A stretch of DNA of 64,000 nt from Bryum argenteum (lineage: Eukaryota; Streptophyta; Bryopsida; Bryales; Bryaceae). The stretch lies in the NCBI GenBank assembly GCA_037043015.1, contig CM073321.1:22131001-22195000 (forward strand). The letters are read 5' to 3'. Both the position numbers and the translations under genes were made by a program. The notes under the pieces are model-generated. The model saw only the letters and a program-made list of their open reading frames with translations, made no database searches and had not been told where the DNA came from. Shown here piece after piece: positions 47,401 to 64,000 of this stretch (its first letter is position 1; every line of letters starts with the position of its first letter).

Positions 47401-47603
47401 ATAGATATATGAAATCAATCTACACTTTTTTAAATGACGAGATATTTATTGTAAGAGTTGACTCAATCTAATGATACACTGAATTTGCCGGCGCTAAGAT
47501 ATAATCAAGAATATCTTATTCTGCCATGACTTATATTTGGTAGCGTAAAAATTGTGACTATTTCTCACTATTGAACAACTTGTCCTGTAATAAATATACG
47601 GCA

Positions 47604-47795
47604 GTCATTTAACAAGTCATCACAGAGCTATTAAAGACCTTCCTTCTAATCTATAACTGCAGAGCTACTATTTTGCTCTCTACAGTATTTGTGGCGGCCG
47701 TCACTTAACAAGTCATCACAGAGCTATTAAAGACCGTCCTTCTAATCTATAACTGCAGAGCTACTATTTTGCTCTTTGCAGTATTTGTGGCGGCA
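47604..47795. repeat. 96-base tandem duplication between the divergent genes of unit A
   Basis: The unit from GTCATTTAACAAGTCATCAC to GTATTTGTGGCGGC occurs twice with only a few differences. It lies between the ParB-like gene start (47308) and the MULE start (48169), so it sits in their shared upstream region. Confidence 0.85.
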
Positions 47796-48168
47796 ATCAT
47801 CTTTTTTACTTGATTTGCTAATCTATATTGGATCTTCCTTAATTTAAAATGTATGCCAGCAATTGGAATCTACTATTTGGAAACACTTAAACATCACAAC
47901 TTTTGCATGTGTATGATACGACCACCTACCAAGCATAGGTTATAGCTTTTCTAGCCGTCATTTAGCTTAATTACTCTACAAAACTCACTATTACCTTCTT
48001 AAACTCTGTTTACTATCACATAAATTAGAAGTTTACAGCGTAATTTCTTCCTTATTATACATTTCTCCTATTCCAATGCTCACAGTACTTGTTATATCAA
48101 ACGACACTTCAAGTCTTTGAGTAGATGTGTATTGAATTTAGTGATAGAGCATTTCACTGTGGACTACT

Positions 48169-50156
48169 ATGGCCTTTCTTTGTGCTGATCATCATTCTGT
48201 TTCGGTCCTCTTTCCATTAAGCGAAGACAGTTATGCTAAAGTCACTTGTACAACCTTAAGTTTAAAGTTTCAGTTTCGTGAGGACACTGTCTTTGTTGAA
48301 GAAGAAGTTTTGACGATAAAACTCGTCTACTTTCACACGCAGTTGGTCAGACCAGAGGAGAAAATGATGTCGGTACATTCTGGTTGTTGAAGCCCGGAAA
48401 ATATTGTGTTTATGGAGTCTCAGATTCTGTGTTAGATGGTTCCACTGAACTTCTAACACCTAGGGAGTCGTCCACTATTAGCATGGAGAGACCAGTAATG
48501 TCTAGAGTCAAAATTGAGCCCGGTCTAGAAACAATTTATGAGTTGAGTGATGACTTTGGTAGTGAGGTTGAAGTTATTTGATCGGAAAGTGAAGTACAAG
48601 GTACCCTACGTCCAGGCGTACATTGTAAGGAATTAGCTCCTCTTAATAGTCTTTCTCGTACTCTTGGTCAGTCCTAGGTTGGAACAAGTCCCGTTCAAAG
48701 TATTATTGATTCATTGATGCGTCTTGGAGCTTGTAAACGATCCAAGAATGTCTTGTCTTGAATTAACTTCGATGTAATCAAACTCCAGCAAGTTGATTAC
48801 CTCCCCCCTCGTTACAATGGAGATGTTATCTTAGAACTTCCTCCATTAGGTGACTACAGTCAAAACACAAAGGCCAAGCAACTTCATGGAATGGATAGAC
48901 GGTACAATGGCCATGCTTGGTCTCGTACAATTACATCAAATATTGCAAATGATCTGAATCTTTTGTTTCGTACATCATCTTGTTTGGGCCACCTCCGTTG
49001 CAACAACCGTGATTGTGAGTATCTTCGGCGAGACCACAGAACTTCCGATCTGAATGAAACTGAGTAGGATGGATTATCTGAGAAGGTGTTTGACGTGGGG
49101 TCCATGCCACCCCCTGGTTCGACCGTTGTTTGCAAGCCCTGTAATGTCCCCCCGACTTGTGTAGCTGTCTGCGCTGCCAAGATCTACTATGTCACTGCGA
49201 CACCTCAGATGACAAGAGCTTGTGTGCACTTGGGACGTCACGACCATCCCGTCAAGTCAGGTGATCATCGGGACTTCATCGAACTAACTGACACCTTGAT
49301 TAGAGAGCAAGTTGAACGCACTCCATCAGCCACTCGCTCCGCAATTGTGCTTGAAACTGCAAAAGAAGAACTGGGCCCACTCCTCCTTGCTAAAGAAAGA
49401 GAACCACAGAAGATCTTAGAACTGGACGAGCTGCAAGTGATTTTTGATCGATGTAAGCACCTGAGCTCTCCCAACATTTGTAACACTTTCACCACATTCA
49501 GGGCTATCCGTCGCTTTGGAGTCATGGACAGTATCACCCAGTTACGCTGTGCTAGCAATTGGAAGTTTGTCCAAAAGAATATGTTTCCAGGGCAACGAGA
49601 GAACATGGATAAGGTCTTTGTCATCAAAATGTCTGAAGTTGGGCCGGGTAGTGGAGTGGATCTCGTTAAGCGAATGCAGTGTGGGGGTGACTTGGAGAAT
49701 GCGTGGATAATGTTTGACCATGTCAAACGTGTTAGATCGTGGACGACGATGGCTTGTCACGTTTATGATTCTAAATATTGCAGAGTCATGACAATTGCAA
49801 CATGCGACATGCAGTCTGAGGACACGACAGCCCAATCGGTTGTCTGGAAGAATTTGAATGCCATTATGGCAAAGCACGGTGTTGAGAATGTGAATTTCAA
49901 GGGCTTCATGGCCAGCGGCGCCCAGGCTAATTGGTATGCGGTTCGCATCATCTATGGGAGCGGAAATGCGTCTGAGAAGATGATTAACAGAGAAAGGACT
50001 TGCCTCTTCCATTGGACCCAGTCCCTAGAAAAACACAAAAAGGCTGACCTACGACAAGACCTCCAAGCTCAACACCGAAAACTTTGTCATCAGTACAAGA
50101 ATGCCACGTCAAAAAACCTTCTGAAACTTTTAGTCTGCATTGAGTTTAACACTTAA
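48169..50156 (+). pseudogene. Mutator-like (MULE) transposase of unit A, truncated
   Basis: It is related along its length to the gene at 58891-62140. The N-terminal part (48169-49080) is disrupted but keeps LKPGKYCVYGV, a DRRYNGHAWSRTIT block and a CNNRDCEY zinc-finger half, as in WRKY/GCM1-type zinc fingers of MULEs. From 49086 to 50156 one long open frame carries a second cysteine cluster (CKPCNVPPTC...C...CVHLGRHDHPV). It continues through the transposase core: VFVIKMSEVGPGSG, MFDHVKRVRSWTTMACHVYD, IATCDMQSED and AQANWYAVRIIYG, then ERTCLFHW. Unit B has RADSAQANW where this copy has MASGAQANW, so an Asp at a likely catalytic position is lost. The C-terminal SWIM finger is missing. The frame ends near the 3' end of unit B's minus-strand gene. 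Confidence 0.75.
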
Positions 50157-50530
50157 ACATTTAGATACACCGATGCATTGAAATTGGAGTTGAAGAAGAT
50201 TCATCAAAATTAGGGTTGGCGTCACCATTAAAGGCAAGCATGGCTTTAGATTACATAGTATTGAGATACTTATAGTAATACTTGAAGCACTTAGTGTAGG
50301 TTAAGCTATCAACGATAATCACGACAAATAAAAAAATAAAACCGTATATATTGAAAAACACATAAAAATAGTATATAAGTAATAGATCATGGTAAACTAC
50401 AAGTGTATGGCGCTATCATGTCCAGTACCTATCAGAAAACAAATCACAAACTAGGCAGACTGGTAGTACCATTAAAGTGCTGATCACACTGATCAGCCTC
50501 AAAGTCTATAAACTTAAGCACACTATTGTT
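50157..50530. other. junction between units A and B
   Basis: Short AT-rich spacer between two convergent gene ends. The left end of unit B should lie here. I found no inverted match to the DNA after 62140 and no obvious target duplication. Confidence 0.4.
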
Positions 50531-53500
50531 TTAACCTCGACGTGGAGTGTCAGACAAAATGGGAGATGGAGCTTGAACAAACTCTTGAGCAAGACGCTCA
50601 GCGTACGATGGTAGGGTGAATTTTGATGGAGGGCTCTTGTAGAGATGAGCATTGCGAGTCAATCGCTCTTTCAGACCTGCGATCCTAAAATTGCAAAGAA
50701 AGTCAGTCCTACCGATTTCTAAGTGCGTAATTTAAAATCAAAAAAGAGAATACAAGATGGTATTACGCACCAATGAACTTGCGTGGCTTCTTCACGACCG
50801 GTTCGTCAGAGTCATAGTCTGCGGGACGGGCTGATTCTCCACTTTCCTCATCACCGGGAGGACCATTCTTGTAATCCGCGAGTACACCATCAAAGATCTC
50901 TTTGTCAGGTTCCATAGCAATGAGGTGTCGATTGGAGCGCGCGCAAGCAATCACAGATGCACCTAAAAAATCAGAAGCCCACGTTAAAAATGCGAAATGT
51001 AGAAACGAATTCTAATGTAGAGTCTACGGAAACATTACCTGTACTTGCGCTCGAGTCGAAGACTATACCCTCTTCGTCCCTGAGACAATCGACGAAACAT
51101 TGAATGAAGGAGGGGTCCTTCTCTCGTGAGCCTTGCCATGGCGTACCATTCGGACGATAACGCAATGTCTCTTTGTCTGCAAAGTTACAGAGGTGGTCTT
51201 CCTCATCTGATACGATTGCCACACCCACGTATGTGTGTGCCACTTGCCGAGTTTGGAACTTTGAAAGATACTCTTTACGAACATAAACTTTGATATGGAA
51301 GCAATGAGTCTGCAAAACACAAGTATAGATACATTAACATAGAAGCATAGAAGGCAATAATCATGAATTGTGAAATTGGAAACTAGAATGTGCTCCGTAC
51401 TTCTTTCGGTTTAGCTACGGTAGAGGCCATAGGGAGGGGATTATACCCCCACCAGTCTCGAACCAGACAAAAACTACATGTATGCGACTCAGAATCAAGA
51501 GTACGGTCAATTCTACGACATTTTGGATGCATAAAAAGAATGGCTCCAACGTCTGTTAAATGATACGCGACAAACACGAAGAGGCTCTCAAAGTAGGTTT
51601 TGTCACGCCGGTTCCATGATGGAATTTTTATTGGAGACACAATCGGTACAGGCAAGTTCTTGGGAGCATCTGCAAAAATGAGATCAATCCCTGGATGCTT
51701 GGGTTCATACTCCATCGCCGAACACGGGTACTTACGGTCTTCTCCAATCTGAGATACAAGTCAAAAATTAGATAGTGGCTAATAGATTTATCATTCTGCA
51801 GTCTTTGATGACTGGTGAACCAAATCTCCAATGTTCCCCTTCTCCAGATACATTGGCAGAGTGACTGATATTTGCGACGACGAGCTGCTACCAATGTGAT
51901 TGGGTTTTGGAAGAGGGCGTCTGGCAAATATTGGCTCGCTGAGGCAACGTGGGGACTGCTGCGAGTTGTGGTCAACGGTGAATGATTGAGGTGGGGACCC
52001 AGCATTTGTAAGTCTACCTGTAGAAAGTTGAGTCAATCTTGCACTGTGTCGAATTGTATTGTTTGCGGCTCCCGCTGAAGCCTGAGTCAGATCAGCATCT
52101 TCACGCCCTGCAATGTCTTCTGAGAGGGGAGCATTTTCTTTGGATTCTTGCTCAAAATCTACAACAGGCTCCGCAACAGCGTTGCGTCGCTTCCTGTTTG
52201 CACGGGACTTGGGCACTGCAACTGGTGAAGAAGGAGAAGAGATTGGATCAAGTGCGACTGGTAAAATGGAGAGGTCGTCATCATCATCGTCGTCAATGTC
52301 CTTCGGTGCAGAGTCAACTGGGTTAGAAGCGAGGTTCCGAAGAAGATGCTTCTCCTCCTTGTGCACGTAGTTGTCGTCGCACTCCGGAAACCATCCACCG
52401 GTCGTCAATTGGGAGTTAATAAACCGCTGTTGTTGGGCTGTGGAGAAAAAGCTGCGGGGATCATTCGTGACTGAAATGTCCTCGAACTCCATTGGAATGG
52501 AGAACGAAGCTAATGCTCCCTTCGCAACGAGCTCTTGTTTTAAGTACCTACAAAAATGTGAACAAATCAGATAGTGAAGATTGAACAAGTTGTACCAATT
52601 TTATTATTATTGAAGAGTAAATTAGAAACATACCGGAATAAAAGCCGCTTAATTGTAACTTTGCCCCAGGTAATCTTTTGAAGATCTGAGCCTTTGATGA
52701 ACTTTGGGCTTGCATTAGGATCAAGATAGTTGTTGAATGCCTTGTCCCATAAGAGCAACCTCCGCTTCTCCACATACTCAGATGGCTTTAGGACAACACT
52801 AGACTACTCAATGTTGAGGTTTTCATTGTCAATCAGGTTTTGCAATTCACTTTGAAGTGAATGCTCGAGCTGTGAAAAAAAAAAACATGTTAATGATGAA
52901 AATACCATGTGAACTCTAACTTTAACAACACGTAACGATAATTTAAGATACTTGTGCCCAAAGAGAAGCGCGATGTAGGAATGCAATCAAAGTTCTATCT
53001 TTCATTGGACGTTCATCTGGGAAGCGAAATGATCGTCGAACTTCGTCTGATGAGTTCCACCATTGGAGCCACTTTCCCTTGAAATCGCAATGAACATTGG
53101 TAGTAGCTACCATTTGTAAGCAATCGATTGTCATATCGGGTTTTAGGTTCTTGCTGTAATGGAAATAAATCTGCACATGAAATTCATAAGTAAGAATCAA
53201 GTTATAAAACATGATTACAAATAGAGTCATATGAAATATGTAAGGGGTGCTTTCTTTACCTCCTTCGCAAATACTTTCCCAAGTTTGTTGTTGGCCACAG
53301 CAACCATCTTGTCGAAGTTTTTGCCACGGATCGACTTGATTTCTGCCTTGATTGCATTATCCATGGCACTCCATACTCCGGGTCCTATTTGTTTCTTCTT
53401 TGGGACGGTGGCGTAGTAATTTGTTTCAGCGTCATCTGATGCTTTTGCTAATCTCCTCTGTATAACATATAAAAATGATTAATAAGGTGTAAAGAACCGA

Positions 53501-56500
53501 ACAGAAAGAATCAAATGTGAGACACATTAAACCCAACTTACCGCGTATAAGAACTTAACAAAAACGTCAACTGTTACAGGATACCAAGTATCTGTTTTTT
53601 CCTTAGCGTTCTTGCAAATTGTGTAATCCTCAGGAGATATCAGATCCTTGAAATCCTCGAGTTTCAATTTTCCGAACTTCCTCATGCGCTGCAATTTTGC
53701 ACACAAACCGTCTTCAACATGGTCATGTTCAGTAGACCTGCACAATGAAATGAAACATGGGAGATATTGAAGTTATATAGAATACATATAAATTGTTATT
53801 GGAAAATATGACGATGACTACTAGTTTATGTCGTTCATAGCGTCAAGCAGGAGATTGCTTTCTCCTCGTGCATCAAGTACGATACAATCCACGGAGATGT
53901 GCCACGAAGGTTCCATCTTATGGTACCTCTTAATGTGACGCATCCACGCCGTAATACGGTGGTTACCTTCGTACACATGAAAGTACTTATCACTCAGGTG
54001 TTGAAGATCCAGATCCGACAACAACGCCTTCTCAAACTCTTCATTTGCAGATTTCCAAAGTGGATTCGTCCACACTGCATCTCCGGCGTCAACCATTTTC
54101 TCTCTCCCTTTCCTATCAAAGGGAGAAACGTACATGACCCAGTGGCCTTCGCGATACCCTTTGTTGAACTCATTTTCCAACTTTTGTACCTCTTGTTCGG
54201 AGATAGGTCGAACCTTAGGATAACAAACAAGACGACACAATGGAATTAGCATGCGTGACTTTTTCAGAGTTTTGTATCGCAACCTGTTGATTATGGCAAT
54301 TGAATCACTCTTGTGAATCATTCGCATTTCATTTGCACTCCAATCGGGATCTTTGTTTTGGAGATGAAGGGGCATGTGGACAATCCTGACATTGACACTT
54401 CCCGGCAGTGGAGGGTCTTCATCTTCAGAATGAGAGACGTCTCCATCGTGATCGTGCATGGGTTGAGGTTGACAGTCAGTTTCCACTGGACTTTCCTCCA
54501 GAACTCCGTTGCCCACGTCTTGAGCACTTCTGCCACTGTCATGTAAGAGTTCATTCTCATACAAGGATCGAGTTGGTGGAGAATGAAGCGGAGTTGGTGT
54601 GGCTTCCTCATCTTGGACGGATTGGACTTGAACTATGTTCATTTGACAATGCAAAAACCAAAATACAACATAGCACAAAAATAATAAGAAGATATCAAAG
54701 TAACAAAGAGATATAGAAAGTAATTTAAAACCTATTTATAATTAGAAAAATATGATAAACATATCATATAATCAATGGATACAATTAAGGAGATTTCAAC
54801 TTTGCGGCAAGTCGCGGAGAACTTCTGGGTGCATTTCACTTGGATACGACGAGCTTTGGCCTCATTTTTCTTAATTCGCCTGTTAATCGCAACCCGATCA
54901 ACGTCAACACGTGAAGTGTGACGGACAGGAGTGAGAGAAGGCGGAGTTTCAGGAACCGAAGACAATGGTATTACTAATCGACGGAAATCCCCATAAGCTA
55001 ACACTTCGTCTCTCAAAGTGGAAAGGTCGCTATGTGCATCGGATTCCTCTTCTGGATGAACTGCAAGTGGCTTTAACGGTTTCTGCAATACAAGTCAAAA
55101 CCACCACCATGCAAAATATCAAATAGTATACAAAGCCAAAGAAATTCACAAACATAATAAATATTAAAACAAATCTCTTGCATTTGCACATCAAGACACA
55201 TCCCAAGCCTAACATCCCAAGTGGCTTTAAAAAAAGAACCCCGTCCCCCAAATCAACGCTGAGATCACAGCTCACGACAAGTAGAATGATCAGGACGAGC
55301 TCACGAACCTAGCCTCGGGCTAGGCGCCAGAGCTTCGTGGACGAAAGTCTCAAAGGTAAGTGAAGCATTCCGAAAAAAAAAGGACCTCGTCCCCCAAATC
55401 AACGCTGGGATCTGAGCTCACGACAAGTTGAATGATCAGGGCGAGCCTGCCTCGGGCAGGGCCCTCACCGGCATGAGCCACTATCTGATCTGCAGAAAAA
55501 AAACTACTACGGCCACCCCGCCACAGAACAAGCATGATGTAATCCGAAATGAGCATCACCTGCCCAGTGTCATACAAGCAAAAACACGAACATCCATCAC
55601 GGCGAGCTCACGAACCCAGCCTCGGGCAGGTTCTCACCGGCATACGCCAGAGCTTCGTTGACGAAAGTCTAGAAGGTAAGTGAAGCATTCCGAAAAAAAA
55701 AGGACCCCCTCCCCCAAATCAACGCTGAGATCACAGCTCACGACAAGTAGAATGATCAGGGCAAGCTCACGAACCCAGCCTCGGGCTAGGCCCTCACTGG
55801 CGTACGCCAGAGCTTCGTGGACAAAAGTCTGGAAGGTAAGTGAAGTATTCCGAAAAAAAAGGACCCCGTCCACCAAATCAACACTTGGATCCGAGCTCAC
55901 GACAAGTAGAATGATCAAGGCGAGCTTACAAAGCCTGGCTCAGGCAGGGCCCTCACCGGCATAAGCCACTATCTGATCAGCAGAAAAGAAACTACCACGG
56001 CCACCCCGCCACGGATCAAGCATCATGTAATCTGAAATGAGCATCACCGTCCCAGTGAATCTGGCAGGGAGCTGAAATTAATCTGAACAACAAAAGGGAC
56101 GACCACCTCGAGGACTACTACGTTCACAGCGTTCAGTCACCTTGATCCTTCCTCAGTCGTCAGGAATCACTTACGCCGCCATCCATTTGCCCTACTCTTT
56201 AAATACAAATCTCTCCCACCGAATTCTAGATAGAAGAAAGAAGAGTAGTTGATTGACAACAAGTACATGATTGAGAGTTGATTCTAACCTTGAAGCATGT
56301 CGCGAACCACGCCTCCTTTTCAGCACGAGTCTTGAATTTTGCTCCAGGAGCGTATTAAAGAGCGTATTCCCTGTAAAACTCAAAAAAGGCTTGACGACGA
56401 ATCAGAACTTACATTCTCCAACTCCTTCTCCACGTCCTCTCCTTTGCGCCGCATTGTGATCTCCTCTTTTCGCCGCATTGTGATCTCCTCTTCAACGCCC

Positions 56501-58379
56501 AAGTTCGCCATTGTAGCTCCTTCCTTCAAACCAAACTGCACATTGACAAGAAAGGATTTGTTGATAGGAACAGGTAGGCCATATTAGTTCATCGTAAGCA
56601 TCTTCACTGATTGCATCCTTTCTATTCACGTAGCTACAATCCAAATTGTCACTCTTTCAGTCAGGCATCTCTTCTGACAGCTTTTCAAAACTGTCCCCTG
56701 CCAAGCTTATTTGAGCCGGATCTAGCCTCATCGGCGGCTTCTCTTTGAATTTCTAGGGTTTTGCGTCGGTGCACAAAGGAGGACCTCCCGCTTCCAAGAT
56801 TTCCATGGATCACTTGCCGAAGGTGCCGGCATCACCTGGTTCATCTAGGCTACGCGTCGTAGGGGGAGGTGAGCGGACATGGAAGAAGCGGACGGAGAGA
56901 AGGCGGAGAAGGACGCGGACAGAGAGGGAGCGGATAAGCGGACGGGCTGATGGAAGACAGTGGTCATGGCAGGGTATCACAGTCAGCAAGGTCGGGCATC
57001 ACCGACGCGGAGGCCACGGCATCTCCTAGGCAAGGGCAGGGTATTAACGGGGCAGGGCAGAACAGGGCTTCATACCCCGAAACCCCAAGTCGGCGCTGCT
57101 GCCGGGGCCGGGGGTTCATACCTCGGTACCCAACGGCGCTGCTACCGGGGCCGGGGGTTTATACCCTCTGGGTTTGCCGGGACCGGGGGTTTATACCCTG
57201 GTCTGGGTCTGCAGGGGCCGGGGATTTAAACCCTGGCCGAGGGTTTATATCCTGGTCTACCGGGGCCGGGGGTTTAAACCCTGGCCGAGGGTTTATATCC
57301 TGGTCTGCCGGGGCCGGGGGATTATACCCTGGCCAGAGGTTTATACCCTGGTCTTACTTGGCCGGGGCCTTATACCCTGCTCTACCCAATACCCTGATAC
57401 CCCAATACCCCATTACCGATACCAAGGATGTCTCCATGTTTACGTGTACCTACTAGGGGTTATACCCTTCAATCTTTTATATTATTATACTGGGCCTCTT
57501 TTATTCAAGGGACTTTACACTTGTACCGCATTTTTAACTGACATTATTTATATTTATCAAAACCAATCAAACATATATTCAATATTACGTCACATTTTTC
57601 TTACTCAAACAATACTTAATCGAAATCTACATTGGCGTACTGTGCAAACATAATCACATATCTAATCTATGGAGGTGAATGCTAAAATGTGCCCATACTC
57701 CTTCATGACACTTAAGAAAAACATCATGTCATTTACCTCCTCCTCTAGAACACGGTCAGTGGTATCTTCATCTTTTTCAACATCTACCAACTTCTTCTTT
57801 TGGTCCATCCGCTCTTCGTTTTCAGAACTGTCCTCGAAATCTTTCTCCGTACCGTCAAAACTTAAATCATCTATCTCATCGTCCTCGGGACCTTCATCGG
57901 CATCACCCTAGTAGATAAACATTCAACTCATTATACTCAAACTGCAATAATTTAATAGCAAAAACTGAAGAATACTACCGTACTTGCCTATCAGAATCCT
58001 GTGCAACCTCATCACCTCCTATGTAATAACATAGAGATTCGCTAGATGTCGATCCACTTCTACCGCGCTCTTGCTCTTCTATAAATCTCTTGAAATCGTT
58101 CCCATCTTCAACAGTGTCTATCTCGTTAATCTCGATCACTGTGTCAAGATTGATCAACCGCATTTTCAGATTACGCCTATACTGGGGCCCGACTTCGTCA
58201 TCGTTCAGATCATAATCAGCAGGGCCTCCCTCATTTCCACTCGACCTAGACGCACCCACCTTTCGCAATGCACTTCGTTTGCGCGCTTTCGTATTACTAA
58301 AACAACTACCTCCTCTCTTCTTCTTCTTCTTAGGCACACTCTCATTGAATCTCTCAGACCCCAAGCTCACCGCGCCCAT
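50531..58379 (-). CDS. ParB-like + beta-class DNA methyltransferase-like protein of mobile unit B
   Basis: Proposed exons (minus strand): 58379-57984, 57907-57737, 55082-54801, 54632-53823, 53737-53542, 53457-53260, 53170-52952, 52869-52634, 52547-about 51810, 51748-51401, 51309-51039, 50962-50767 and 50684-50531. Exons 1-3 are basic then acidic. Exon 4 holds the ParB/sulfiredoxin-like part (GYREGHWVMYV, YEGNHRITAWMRHIKRYH). Exon 10 has DLIFADAPKN (motif IV-like), WNRRDKTYFESLF and DWWGYNPLP. Exons 11-12 have GTPWQGSREKDPSFIQ and, across a splice, VFDSSASTGASVIACARSNRHLIAMEPDKEIF, which reads like motifs I and II. IV-before-I order is that of beta-class amino methyltransferases. Lesions: an in-frame TAG near 52805, and a stop formed at or beside the exon 4/5 junction. 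It is divergent from the MULE gene. Confidence 0.55.
55228..56070. repeat. tandem repeat cluster inside an intron of unit B's gene
   Basis: Four copies of a GC-rich unit begin near 55228, 55370, 55690 and 55850 (core CCCCCAAATCAACGCTG...GAGCTCACGACAAGT). Two of them are extended by a second module ending CCACTATCTGATC-GCAGAAAA...GCCACCCCGCCAC (near 55.48 and 55.96 kb). Spacing is uneven because of that extra module. Confidence 0.8.
56071..57660. other. remainder of a large intron, no supported gene
   Basis: This lies between exons 2 and 3 of the minus-strand gene. It contains an Arg-rich plus-strand frame (56769-57029) and short minus frames with no family resemblance. I treat these as chance. 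Confidence 0.4.
57050..57400. repeat. GC-rich minisatellite, GGGTTTATACCC type
   Basis: About ten irregular copies of a CCGGGGCCGGGGGTTTATAC-type unit. Some carry GGGTTTAAACCC, which is self-complementary. It is followed by shorter ATACCC words to about 57.43 kb. Confidence 0.8.
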
Positions 58380-58890
58380 AACATCAAGACTCTAAACAAA
58401 AGCACACAGATCGTACCGTCTCAATACCTTACCAACACCAACTAAACGAACAAAGGAAAGGACCATCTCGTCGTCCTACTCCTATTTAAACAAAGTTTAC
58501 AAGCCGCCCCCTAACCTAATTTGCGCGGTTCATCATAAATTATCGCAACAACTATGACGGCTTATGGTCTGCCAAATGTGACATTCTCTGACATGAGATG
58601 CTAATCTATTTTTTGAATTTGCATACAAATGCTCTGACAATGACGGCCGCCGTCACTTTTCCAATTTTGAGACTGTCAACACTTGCACATTAATGATACT
58701 AATTACAATTGTCTAATGGTATACAATATTTACTCTTCATTATGGTAATTGTCTGATTTATTCAATCTACTGTACTTTTTTACTTCATTATAAGTTCCAA
58801 CTACCAATTTTCTCTTATAGACTGCATCATACCTAGTGCGTATCCTTTTCTCACATCCACTGTCGATGCTCGTTGGTCCTCTCGCACATC
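58380..58890. promoter_or_regulatory. shared divergent upstream region of unit B
   Basis: These 511 bases separate the start codons of the ParB/methyltransferase-like gene (minus) and the MULE transposase (plus). A bidirectional promoter is inferred from layout. CCTATTTAAAC near 58.49 kb and GTATACAATATT near 58.72 kb are AT-rich but not clear TATA boxes. Confidence 0.4.
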
Positions 58891-61800
58891 ATGGCTTCCT
58901 CCTCCTTTGAACCCACTGCTGCGGACATCGTGGAGATTATGTCACAGGAAGCACTTGTTCCCATTTGCATGTGCGTAGGGCTTGAAGGTGTCCTAGAGAT
59001 CACTGCATCGTGGCTTGGAATTCGATTCGGCTACGATGCATCTTCACTGTGGTTAGAGAGAGAAGTTCTAGAACCTGATACTAATCATGTTCAGTACTCC
59101 ATGGTCGTAGATCCAATCATCCTAGAGAATAATACTACAATCTGGAAGCTTAGAGCTGGAAAGTATTGCCTCTATGACTTGACGGAGTCCGTCATGAACG
59201 CGTCAACATTTCTCCTGACCCCACGCAGTTCTTCTACTATTTCCACGGTTGCTCCAGCTCTTGCTCTTGTCAAAGTCGAACCAGGTCTGGAAGTCACCAT
59301 TGATATATCGGATTCATCAAAAGATGAGAAGAAGTCTCCTCTGCAACCATGTTGTCTCTCCTCTGATATTCCATTGCCCCCTCCTATTAGGGATAACTAT
59401 CTAAGAGCCACCCCTCCTTTACTTTCATCGCAAATCGTAAAACCCAAAAAAATTCTTCCATCCCTCTGCAATCTCGCTAGAATGCCCAGTAGCAAGACTC
59501 TCCTAAAAAAAATTGATTTCGAAACCATCCGCACTGTCAACGTATCTTTCTTGCCTCCGTCGTTCAATGGCGATGTTCTCTTCATTTTTCCCCCTACTCT
59601 TCCGTCTGCAACTCACAAGGTCGCGAAGTCCATGGAAGGGATGGATAAACGGTACGACGGTCATGTGTGGACTAGGACGATGACCACCAACATCAGCAAT
59701 ACACAAGGCTTGTCTTTCCGATACTTGAACTGTGTAGGACATCTACAGTGCCACAACCCAAACTGCGACTTCTAGCAACGACCTGATTGAGTCGCTGGAG
59801 TGAACGATGTGGAGTTTGAAGGCATTACCAAAGTCCCCTTTCTAGTAGGCGGATCGCCCCCGCCCACCTCGACGTTGGTCTGTAAGCTTTGCAAACAACC
59901 TCCAATTTGTATTGCGCCTTGTTCTGCGAAAATCTTTTACGTACTTGGAGAAGATTGTCAAGAGCGTGCATGTGTCCATATAGGAACACGCGAACATCCT
60001 GTCAAAGTCGGAGATTATAGATGTGTACGGAAAAAAATAGATGAGTTACTAGAAGAGCATGTTGACCGTAACCCTCAAGCAACCGTTTCCAAAATAGTTA
60101 TGGAAACCAGCAAAGACTTGTTAGGTAACTTACTTCTCCGTGACAAAGGTGACCCCGAAACCGGCAATCTTTCTCTTCTGCAGCTAGAACCAGTCTTTGA
60201 ACAATGCAAAGAGTTAAACTCTCCCAGCATGCGGAATCGTATCTACACTTTCAAGTACTTGCGTAGATATGACATTCTCGATGGGATCACATAGCTCAGA
60301 GGTCTGAGCAACTGGGCGTATGTGCAACGCAACATGTTCCCTAGCCAAGGAGACAAATCGGAGAAAGTCTTCATTTTCAAGATGTCCGAGGTCGGCCTCG
60401 GCAGCGGTATTGACCTGGTTTGCCGTATGCACCCTGGAGGAAATCCCTCCCACGCATGGATGATGTTTGACCATGTCCAATGCGTAACGGATTGGACCAC
60501 CATGGCCTGCCACGTGTACGACTGACGTTATCAACGCAAACTAACGATTGCATGCTGTGATTTCCAGTCTGAGACAAAGAAGCTCAACTCGTCTTTTGGA
60601 AGAACCTCAACCACGTCATTGCTAGGACCAGAGTACCCAAGCCGCAATTTCCACGATTTAGGGCTGATAGTGCTCAGGCCAACTGGAACGATGTGCGCAT
60701 CATCTACGGCTCTAGAAACCCTGCTGTCTCCATGGAAGCCGCTAACGCACATGTTATTTCCATTGGACTCACGCTCTTGAGAAACATACGAAACAATACA
60801 TTGTGCCCGATTTGCAAGGCCAACACCAAATTTTGTGTTCTACCATCAATTCAATAAAGGCGCTGCAAGTGGTTCTGGACCATCCGTAGAAGAACTTCGT
60901 CAGCGTCTTTATACTGCTCAACGTCGGGCTAATCGATCCGGCAATCCATCTTGCCTTAACAAGGCAGTTATGGACTTCCCTGAAGCAGAAGCTTAGTGTA
61001 CGCGTGACGCCCACTTGGAAGGGGCATAGATTTTTGGTTTCTGGAACCAAAAATCGTAAGGCTGATGTTCCCATTGGTGCTAAAGATGAAACTCATCGAC
61101 GTGACACCGTGAGTTACTCACGTCCTCGAATAGGGAGAAGAGTCACACGAGCTCTTGCTGAGAATCTCAGTCCTATACACGAAGAAGATGAAGTTCAGGA
61201 GCAACCGCTGGAACCCCCCGCTTATCCAAGACCTAGTATTCAGCGCGTCATTGCTATCCAAGAGACGAGAGTAAATGAGCGTCTATGGTACATTGCTCGT
61301 TGGAAGGAATCCTCATCCAAGGCTTGTTGGAGTATTATGGCTAAGACCAGGAAGAAATGCGAATCCCGCATTGTCCAAAACGGGAAGGCGACCGCAGCTC
61401 CAACTTACACCGGAGTATGGCAACGTCCTCAAGAAGGTCCAAAAAAAACAGATCAGTTTTTCTTTTGTCCAGACGACATTGAGCGTTGTGTGAAGGGTAG
61501 TCGTCGTAAATGGATTGAGCCGTTCTCTCGGAAACAAGGACGACCGCCTATTCCCTCTGTTTGGCCCGTGAAGATTGGGACTAATCTCAAACTGAATGAA
61601 ATAGAGGCATTGGAGAATGCGGGTTTTCGGCTCCCACAAAAGGAACGCCTTCCTCTCAACCGCACATTCAATACTTATGCGCCACCGAGAAACTTATCAC
61701 ATATTCCAGTGCCGGACAAGGCTAATGTGTACCCCAAATCACGCAAGTCTAAAGTTCTTTGACGCATCAAGGCTGTGACTCCGAAGCACATGAAGAACAT

Positions 61801-62140
61801 TGATTCAGCTCGTGCCATGGAGGCAAAAATACTCGAGGTGACCATGATACCACAACCTGGTTTTGGATGTATCGTTGCTTTGGAGTCGGATTCAGAGTCT
61901 ATCTATAAACTATCTCTAAGTGAGAACCCTGAGTGTTCTTGCCCAGTGTTCAAAAAAACCATAACTAAGTTAGGAGGAAAAGGCGATCCGTATTGACATT
62001 GCAAGCACCTATACTTCGTGTTGGTATTGGTATGCAAATTTGATATTGATAGAGACCTCTTCATCCACGCGCCCACCTTCAGTTACAACAAGGTGAAAAT
62101 GATTCTAGAGAGGGGAATCCTAGACCAAGTTAGAGAGTAG
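58891..62140 (+). pseudogene. Mutator-like (MULE) transposase of unit B
   Basis: From the ATG at 58891 (MASSSFEPTAAD) the N-terminal domain has WKLRAGKYCLYDLTESV and a MDKRYDGHVWTRTMTTNI...CVGHLQCHNPNCDF segment, a WRKY/GCM1-type zinc finger as in MULEs. A second cysteine cluster follows (CKLCKQPPICIAPC...RACVHIGTREHPV). The core reads VFIFKMSEVGLGSG, FDHVQCVTDWTTMACHVYD and ADSAQANWNDVRIIYGS. The C-terminal part has the SWIM finger CSCPVF...HCKHLYFVLV (61.94-62.03 kb). In-frame stops occur at about 59773, 59788, 60292, 60523, 61760 and 61994, and the frame changes between 60.53 and 61.0 kb. The stop near 60292 aligns with Gln in unit A (SITQLR), consistent with CAG to TAG. Confidence 0.75.
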
Positions 62141-62149
62141 ACTACCCCA

Positions 62150-64000
62150 AGGTCACATAACGTAAACCAACATCCACATCTACCCATTCTACATGTTATC
62201 CCTGTAATCGTGTGTTTTACACGTTATTTATCTTGATTTCAGCATTTTACAAAAGTCAATAAATGTATCTCTATTTACATAAACCTATGAGTTGCTTTAC
62301 AAATTCGACTTATGATTTCACAGTTATAAGATACTAGTCTACTCTATACATTTGCAGAAAGTCGTTTAAGTCCACCCAAGTTTAGAATTTTTAACCTCAT
62401 ATCCACGGGTTTAGGAACACTAAACTACGGTAATAAGAAAAAACAACGGTTTTCTTTAAAATCGAGTCCCCTTTGCCTTCCTTCTTGCATGCATGTGTGT
62501 AGATTACATGCAAGTGACCGTGGTTTGTTTGTGTAGCCAAGACCGGACGAGGTTTTTGTAATTTTATGTTGTTGAATTTTGTGGTGGGCGGGTAACTTAG
62601 TGAGCCGGCTGATCCGGACACGAAGTGGGGTTGTTGGCCATTTGGCCTAACCCACTTGTGTTGTAAATTGTGGGTGTTTTTGAAATTTTTGTACCAAGGG
62701 GGTTTTTGGGGTTGGCTTGTGTTACCACTCAAATATTGAGCGTCAAGGGGGTCTCCCCCTTGCCTATTGTAGTCTTGGGAGATTGAAAGCAGATTACTAT
62801 TTATAGCAATCTGTCATCTCTCACAAGGCGCCCGGTGAGTGTTTTTTACACTTCGTGCCCAACCCTAGTAGGAAGGGACACCGGCGTAGCCCTTGGGGGC
62901 GAAAGTGAATTGTTCTCACCATTTGGGTGAAGATTCACTTGTGTTTAGGTTGGCAATCTTCCAACCGAAAGTAGAAATTCACCGTTGTTGGGTGACTTCT
63001 ATTTGTGTGTAGTAGCTATGTCTTTTCTGTAGGCTTTTTGATATATGGTGAGGACGATTTAATCACCGGCGTGGCCATTTTTATTGTTTGAAATCAAGAC
63101 CGTTGGCAGTGATGCCCCAACGGTTTTGAGTGGTTGTGTTTGTAGGTTGAACACACAGGTTGCCCATAATCCCGTCCATCGAGACTTTTGTAGTCCACCC
63201 TTTATTTTCCACTTAATCATTTGTATAATTCATTTGTAAACCTCTCGAGGGTCCGGAAGCCCAATTGGGAAATTGGGAAGTGGGTCGGGTGAAGCCGCCC
63301 ATTCAAGAACCGGCACGGGGTTCTTGAGTGGTTACCACTCCCAAGACGTGCGCCATCATGGTAAGGGGCGGAGGACCATTTGTGTTCACTTGTGGTAAAA
63401 AGCTTGTGTTAAAATTTAATTTATCAAGCCTAATTGAGGGTTTTCCTATGTTGTCCGGTTTTTTATTGGTCATTAGATCCTTGGAATTTAGCTTAGTAAC
63501 TTCTTGGTGTTTTTTAGGCTTCGTAATTCATAACGGTTTAACCAAAGAGCAAAGGAATTTAGGGGCTTGGTAAATGTCTAACCGGTGGAAGTACTTGTGA
63601 CCTTGTATGGTAAAAACCACATTGATCCGGGATCAATACTTCCCGCCCATGGAGGAAGTATGAGTGGGGGGACATGATAGTGCTGAGGCTTACTTGATAT
63701 TGGGAGCACAACCTGGTATCTTGATCATTATATCCTTCCGTGCTTATCAATTACTAAGGCACCGTGGGCTAAAGGCTCCGGCCCTCCCCTAGTAAATGCT
63801 GTACTTGCACGGTGATTAGGGAGAATTCAGTAAACGGCCGGGTAGGGGTGCAAGGCTACCATTCCCCCCCCCCCTTAGTGTTTGGGAACTCTTGGAGGAG
63901 GGCTTTTGCGGGCCCCGTTGATGATTGAGGTCTTTACCATACAAATTACTAGTTTAACTTCATTGTCTGATTATATTTGCTTAAGCGGGATGGGAGTTCA
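62150..64000. other. no supported gene
   Basis: From about 62.45 kb the composition changes to GT/GGG-rich sequence without open frames. TGGTATC at 63714 could be the start of a tRNA-Met type primer site of an LTR element running off the window. I cannot define the LTR ends, so this stays a hint. Confidence 0.3.

Follow-up and report, generated by a model that had tools for sequence, protein, structure and literature searches.

A selected ParB-like and methylase-derived gene in a putative Mutator-like transposon of the moss Bryum argenteum

What would a plant transposon do with a gene that joins a ParB-like region to a domain of the DNA amino-methylase type? The question is raised by a 64,000-nucleotide stretch of the Bryum argenteum genome (C1:22131001-22195000, here called the window), in which a first-pass annotation had placed, at 50531..58379, a mobile unit encoding a protein of this kind. 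By comparing the window with other copies in the genome (258.8 Mb, 25 contigs) we found that the gene belongs to an element that appears to be a Mutator-like transposon, that its protein is under purifying selection, both ends included, and that its C-terminal part, as judged from profile alignments, descends from beta-class N6/N4 DNA amino-methylases. We put at about even the chance that the product, which is kept by selection, serves the transposon as an accessory protein that binds DNA and probably does not methylate it.

The six peptide blocks quoted in the annotation lie on the minus strand in the order that it gave, as we confirmed directly in the window sequence. Ten other copies were fetched with their flanks and nine of them were aligned with the window over the gene; the tenth, c7_18469, was excluded because an insertion splits it. 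The ParB-like and methylase-derived gene occupies window positions 54642-50444 of the minus strand, with a start ATG at 54642 and ten exons (numbered 4-13); in other copies it is about 1,170 codons long. Most of the nine aligned copies have GT/AG at the exon ends, several of them lacking a single site, and selection acts on the frame of exons 4-12. The exon chain first proposed thus holds over this part, while its first three exons apparently form a separate gene. The gene and its exons are as follows.

50444..54642, minus strand: decayed copy of the ParB-like / methylase-derived gene, exons placed by projection and by alignment to nine copies, under purifying selection
53822..54642, minus strand: exon 4 (first exon), YEGNHRITAW in a ParB-like region, TAG at 53823 and donor weakened
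53542..53737, minus strand: exon 5, stop-free in all ten aligned sequences, ratio of nonsynonymous to synonymous substitution rates (dN/dS) 0.13
53260..53457, minus strand: exon 6, splice sites present in copies, includes the start of the Ceratodon model P0001
52952..53170, minus strand: exon 7, from splice sites and alignment of copies
52634..52869, minus strand: exon 8, a TGG codon reading TAG in the window copy, from alignment with copies
51791..52547, minus strand: exon 9 (linker), end and donor lost with about 94 bp deleted
51401..51748, minus strand: exon 10, methylase-derived domain with DAPK at the motif IV position (DAPE in most other copies)
51039..51309, minus strand: exon 11, with GSREKDPSF and then VFDSSAST, first half of the motif I position
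50771..50962, minus strand: exon 12, with GASVIACARSNRHLIAMEPD, remainder of the motif I region
50444..50676, minus strand: exon 13 (terminal), early stop at 50533 in the window copy; Ceratodon P0001-P0003 end alike

The window copy itself is dead. A TGG-to-TAG change at 53823 spans the exon 4/5 junction and the exon 4 donor is weakened from GTGAGT to GTAGTC, with the GT itself kept; exon 8 holds a further TGG-to-TAG change at about 52804; about 94 bp are deleted at 51791, so that exon 9 has lost its end and its donor; and the last exon stops prematurely at 50533, a position that most other copies read through. With these defects the protein is not makeable. Each of the nine other aligned copies likewise carries at least one stop or frameshift within exons 4-12, and a stop-free exon 4 or exon 10 is present at many other places in the genome. 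A locus on C9 with a 435-codon frame was considered as an intronless retrocopy that would prove splicing, and was rejected on finding a stop-free intron in it.

Selection was measured over 1,069 codons of exons 4-12 in the 45 pairs among the ten sequences (window plus nine copies). The median dN/dS was 0.23 (range 0.13-0.64), and controls gave 0.93 and 1.27 for the same columns shifted by one or two bases and 0.92 for introns. By part, the medians were 0.25 for exon 4, 0.17 for exons 5-8, 0.26 for exon 9 and 0.28 for exons 10-12; for exon 5 the value was 0.13, and for exon 6 upstream of its internal methionine 0.24 (44 pairs). Such low values argue that the protein, both ends included, is useful to the element. 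They bear on the idea that the gene is a captured host fragment riding as neutral cargo, in the manner of a Pack-MULE (Mutator-like element). Mutator-like elements often pick up host gene fragments, according to the accessible part of PMC6446971, and a diverged paralog, which may be a host gene or may itself belong to a transposon, lies elsewhere in the genome. We nonetheless regard neutral cargo as very improbable, because the ten-exon frame is under purifying selection across subfamilies, with dN/dS well below 1, and is 53% identical to P0001 of Ceratodon.

The family is large, and the counts that follow are lower bounds, being based on exact patterns or on scored subsets of the candidates. 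Scoring 141 of the 1,216 first-look candidates for exon 4 gave 146 matches on C1-C11 (at least 141 places), and scoring 150 of the 962 for exon 10 gave at least 150 matches. At least 360 exact matches in the genome were found for the block pattern EGNH-x-x-TAW and at least 169 for GIDLIF-[AG]-DAP; the reversed-pattern controls had 0 matches. Silent positions differ among the listed pattern matches, as expected under protein constraint. C1 seemed over-represented among the hits nearest to the window copy, an impression on which we base no claim.

Full-protein relatives in the protein database, searched by a method that finds only relatives with common short exact words, were limited to three Ceratodon purpureus proteins with 51-53% identity over 65% of the query: P0001 (M758_6G158200), P0002 (M758_1G310400) and P0003 (M758_9G084500), which are 53, 52 and 51% identical to the copy c5_1612. 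The paralog lies on C4 (C4:20497600-20503600, loci L042 and L043); its exons match exons 4-12 and the position of the exon 10/11 intron is common to both. Recurring TCTGTACCGAAC-like words were seen by eye in its introns. Through the paralog we found P0004 of Ceratodon (KC19_7G101700), which is 53% identical to L042 and is called a DNA methylase N-4/N-6 domain protein by one source, and P0005, an unnamed 389-amino-acid protein that matches the middle region. Relatives of this middle region appear to be confined to its own family. The intron position that the gene has in common with the diverged paralog, together with its relatives in Ceratodon, suggests that it is old in mosses. The annotation had proposed that a bacterial-type ParB-methylase was captured by a eukaryotic transposon and gained introns; the gene is indeed transposon-borne, intron-bearing and methylase-derived, and a recent bacterial capture is unsupported, given this age. 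On the viral side, no relatives were found in viral contigs with profile A1 (P0001-P0003 alone) and two N-terminal patterns only, or among phages by tblastn of the paralog's ParB-like exon. With P0004, 237 phage records scored E<=1; of the 20 listed, the strongest had 5e-3 and most were annotated as methylases. A phage ParB-methylase fusion was sought as a reference; the two phage methylase genes examined stand alone.

The beta-class ancestry of the C-terminal part, with motif IV before motif I, had been proposed in the annotation and is supported here. Profile A5, made from the family, the paralog and relatives with P0005 left out, matched DpnA/M1.HpyAVI at 8e-4 and CcrM at 0.013; in the alignment to CcrM, GIDLIxADAPEN falls on SVDLIFADPPYN and the VFDWSASTG block on motif I, which gives the beta-class order. 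In addition, PF01555 is found in P0004 over its cut-off (E 1.9e-8, 35.0 bits), and P0004 matches P0001 both in the middle region (2e-22) and in the methylase part (8e-21). The phage family phrog_3008, 'DNA methyltransferase', matched P0001 at 2.5e-5. Against the CcrM model of NCBIfam, P0004 had an E of 3.5e-4 and P0001 one of 0.087, both falling well short of its cut-off. A PDB sequence search with P0001 alone, which reached DpnA at E=1 only, was set aside. Across the genome, PF01555 hit 32 places, two of them at or just above the cut-off (26.8 and 26.7 bits), one of which is the C4 paralog. The 30 further places are sub-threshold, mostly in the motif I part and mostly outside C1, and are perhaps more diverged families.

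Does this domain still methylate DNA? Motif IV of amino-methylases has the form [DNS]PP[YFW] and motif I the form FxGxG. In the 14 transposon-family sequences read (the ten aligned, L041 and P0001-P0003), the motif IV position is DAPE or DAPK in 13 and NAPE in one, and none has the [DNS]PP[YFW] form. At the motif I position most read SASTG, P0003 reads SANTG and c34228 SASTS, so that FxGxG is likewise absent. CcrM and M1.HpyAVI (DpnA) carry the two motifs in the same order and position but with DPPY and an FxGxG-type motif I, where the moss family has DAPE and SASTG. These replacements make methylation doubtful, and with it the suggestion in the annotation that the protein could mark the element's own DNA. 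An active methyltransferase of unusual motif IV, producing N6-methyladenine (6mA) or N4-methylcytosine (4mC) on the element, is in our judgement unlikely. It would account for the retention of the entire domain order, for the constraint on exons 10-12 and for the retained aspartate and third-position proline of motif IV, and relatives do exist with DQPY (P0004) and DTPF (the family's own paralog, L042). On the other hand, every one of the 14 family sequences read has glutamate or lysine in place of the aromatic residue of motif IV, serine stands for the first glycine of FxGxG, and the family pattern with DPP in place of DAP has 0 matches genome-wide.

At the other end of the protein, exon 4 encodes IPLCRLVCYPKVRPISEQEV, followed by VYEGNHRITAW and then a strand-like VDCIVLD. 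The P-motif of ParB-CTPase proteins contains a GxHR/GxRR-type arginine. GNHR is present in both the window and the paralog L043, and the arginine is encoded in 96 of the 100 matches listed, and read by eye, of the 360 genome matches to the block. The arginine is thus retained in most family copies; a change of the P-motif arginine abolishes nucleotide binding, according to the portion of PMC12704722 that was accessible. The ParB-like family phrog_1033 was matched at E 0.12 by only one of four members. We consider homology of the exon 4 region to ParB likely. The paralog L043 has the same layout (36% identity, WDGNHRLVAW) in a single exon that runs into the equivalent of exon 5, which supports the fusion and indicates that the exon 4/5 intron is real. 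A fusion of ParB-like and methylase-derived parts is thereby supported, from sequence comparison, in two paralogous families of the genome. The PDB search with the window's ParB-like exon returned a single unrelated chain at 0.4, which was discarded.

The gene lies in a transposon, as the annotation had it, and the unit is larger than the one it outlined; the window holds positions 50111-62437 of it, without either end.

50111..62437, no strand assigned: internal fragment of a high-copy Mutator-like element, both ends missing; other copies continue past both points
58837..62141, plus strand: divergent transposase-like gene, decayed, with a C-terminal CxC...CxH (SWIM-like) seen by eye in L031

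What the window fragment is missing amounts to about 0.7 kb on the 3' side of the gene and about 0.15 kb at the opposite end. In other copies, the outer end on the gene's 3' side reads ...CACCGCTCTCCGCTCACACCCGTGCATTCCCC (7 copies, with single-base differences) and the outer end on the other side ...CACCGCTCTCCGCTCACACCGTAGCTACGTCC (7 loci, plus 3 in a second reading, with small differences). Two of the three copies tested are flanked by a 9-bp target-site duplication, GTGCGACAT in c34916 and ATACATTCT in c34228; from their coordinates these copies are about 14.1 kb and about 23.5 kb long, lengths that may include nested insertions. CACCGCTCTCCGCTCACAC occurs near both ends in inverted orientation, and the outermost 13 bases differ. 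According to the accessible text of PMC6446971, target duplications of 8-11 bp are the Mutator-like range and MULEs without terminal inverted repeats are also known. The label 'Mutator-like' is drawn from the duplication length and the ends, together with general features of the transposase. For the latter, the CxC...CxH (SWIM) arrangement is a hallmark of MULEs. Several of the examined copies carry the methylase-like gene together with the transposase, and the gene's membership of the element is established from the compared copies, which appear to be those of a Mutator-like transposon.

Both ends of the element carry runs of one 7-8 bp repeat of the CACCGCTC type, as read by eye. The repeat runs and the linkage of gene and transposase would be expected if the protein bound CACCGCTC-type ends and assisted the transposase as a transposition co-factor, with no part in anti-silencing; we regard this narrower role as possible and rather improbable. 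Help in transposition and anti-silencing are sub-roles that would look the same in the present analysis. Under the accessory-protein reading that we prefer, the protein would consist of the ParB-like N-terminal region, the middle region and the methylase-derived C-terminal domain. The last, no longer transferring methyl groups, would serve as a module for binding DNA and perhaps S-adenosylmethionine (SAM); the ParB-like region would load or hold this module on the element's repeat-rich ends or introns; and the complex may aid transposition or, like VANC of the Arabidopsis VANDAL elements, prevent host silencing of the element.

Several results weigh against this accessory-protein reading. For the methylase part, P0001-P0003 stay below the PF01555 cut-off of 26.7 bits (E 0.0024, 0.034 and 0.015; 18.3, 14.5 and 15.7 bits), which makes their link to methylases indirect, and the window exons alone matched no profile, PF01555 included; of P0001-P0004, only P0004 passed this check, which the annotation had proposed. 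A PDB profile search with A1 found nothing. The structure prediction that the annotation also proposed is ambiguous: the model of P0001 has a mean predicted local distance difference test score (pLDDT) of 32, and its order of strands and helices, in so weak a model, is compatible with a Rossmann-type fold; its best-ranked PDB matches are the beta-class methylases M1.HpyAVI (E 0.015) and CcrM (0.019), none reaches E<=0.001, and unrelated folds follow lower down; we take these matches as slight support for the methylase link. That the domain has probably lost methyl transfer is deduced from two motifs. For the ParB-like part, the GNHR block of the annotation's ParB claim stands in the N-terminal exon, and the profile evidence fails to join it: no ParB family was matched in Pfam (E<=10) or NCBIfam (E<=5), the PDB search with profile A6 gave nothing, and the PHROG match is the weak one given above. 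The fold models of both parts are poor, that of the ParB-like part having a mean pLDDT of 34 and no ParB among the 50 listed of its 204 fold matches, which we take as noise. In the annotated models of the four Ceratodon homologues found (P0001-P0004), translation begins at a methionine inside exon 6 or its equivalent, and the ParB-like part is absent from all four. For the element, c36138, one of the three copies tested, has no target duplication, and the transposase matched no MULE, SWIM, transposase or zinc-finger family of Pfam at E<=10.

Known systems offer partial parallels. Fusions of ParB-fold domains to DNA methylases such as N6_N4 are frequent in phages; these ParB-CTPase-fold plus N6_N4_Mtase proteins, as described in the accessible part of PMC12704722, resemble the moss gene in having both domains in one polypeptide on mobile DNA. 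The moss gene differs in lying in a plant DNA transposon, in its many introns, in its changed motif IV and in a ParB-like part below profile thresholds. The same portion of that paper names sulfiredoxin as the commonest eukaryotic case. A bolder version would make the protein a eukaryotic counterpart of the phage fusions, a ParB-type nucleotide-dependent clamp tethered to a dead methylase that acts as reader or shield and coats the element's DNA, which would thus escape or redirect silencing; we rate this as distinctly unlikely. VANC, in the part of PMC5735166 consulted, binds short repeated motifs in Arabidopsis VANDAL elements and lowers their DNA methylation; there, too, a Mutator-like element whose non-coding parts hold tandem repeats carries an accessory gene. 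VANC is not described in that part as related to ParB or to methylases. Retrotransposons of dinoflagellates and charophytes, again from the accessible part of the source (PMC5890265), are alike in being transposable elements that keep a methyltransferase gene, and differ in that theirs is of the C5 class and shown active, and in their class of element.

A survey of the literature, which covered few subscription papers and no preprints and saw its sources in part, turned up no ParB or amino-methylase gene in a moss transposon. What appears new is the ParB-methylase combination in a plant DNA transposon, with its changed catalytic motif and strong selection; each kind is separately known. Few transposon proteins are known to counter silencing, and a conserved protein with ParB-like and methylase-derived parts, encoded hundreds of times over in a single plant genome, offers a system open to testing. 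The family suggests a long history of bacterial-type amino-methylase genes in moss genomes and transposons. It is also relevant to claims of 6mA and 4mC in plants, as a match to a DNA methylase in a bryophyte may be a transposon gene without activity.

The annotation had drawn the gene as spanning 58379..50531. Its ATG is at 54642, and 58379-54778 apparently holds a small gene of its own, since in 8 of the 10 matched copies the exons there run into an in-frame TAA (frame ...LARLAPRRSPRLAAK); one of the others is frameshifted earlier and in one the match stops short. In other copies this small gene ends ...RRSPRLAAK..stop, and it is retained in most. In the window a 14-bp deletion conceals its stop.

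54778..58379, minus strand: upstream small gene with a lysine-rich start, exons 58379-57984, 57907-57737 and 55082-54778
55596..57379, no strand assigned: minisatellites with 159-bp and 35/48-bp units, in the upstream gene's intron

The minisatellite part (55596-57379) varies strongly between copies.

Beyond the element's broken left edge, the transposase at 47.5-50.1 kb belongs to a related second family and not to this element. It lies at 47500-50112 on the plus strand, has 59% amino-acid identity and is cut at 50112, where the element fragment begins; eight other places match nearly the whole of this stretch up to 50112. In copy c40512 (L010), a second and more diverged element of about 74-76% identity lies adjacent or inside, at about 11.2-15.8 kb of the joined copy. 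At the broken right edge, positions 62438-64000 hold another high-copy repeat, for which 40 of 145 first-look candidates were scored, many of them on C1.

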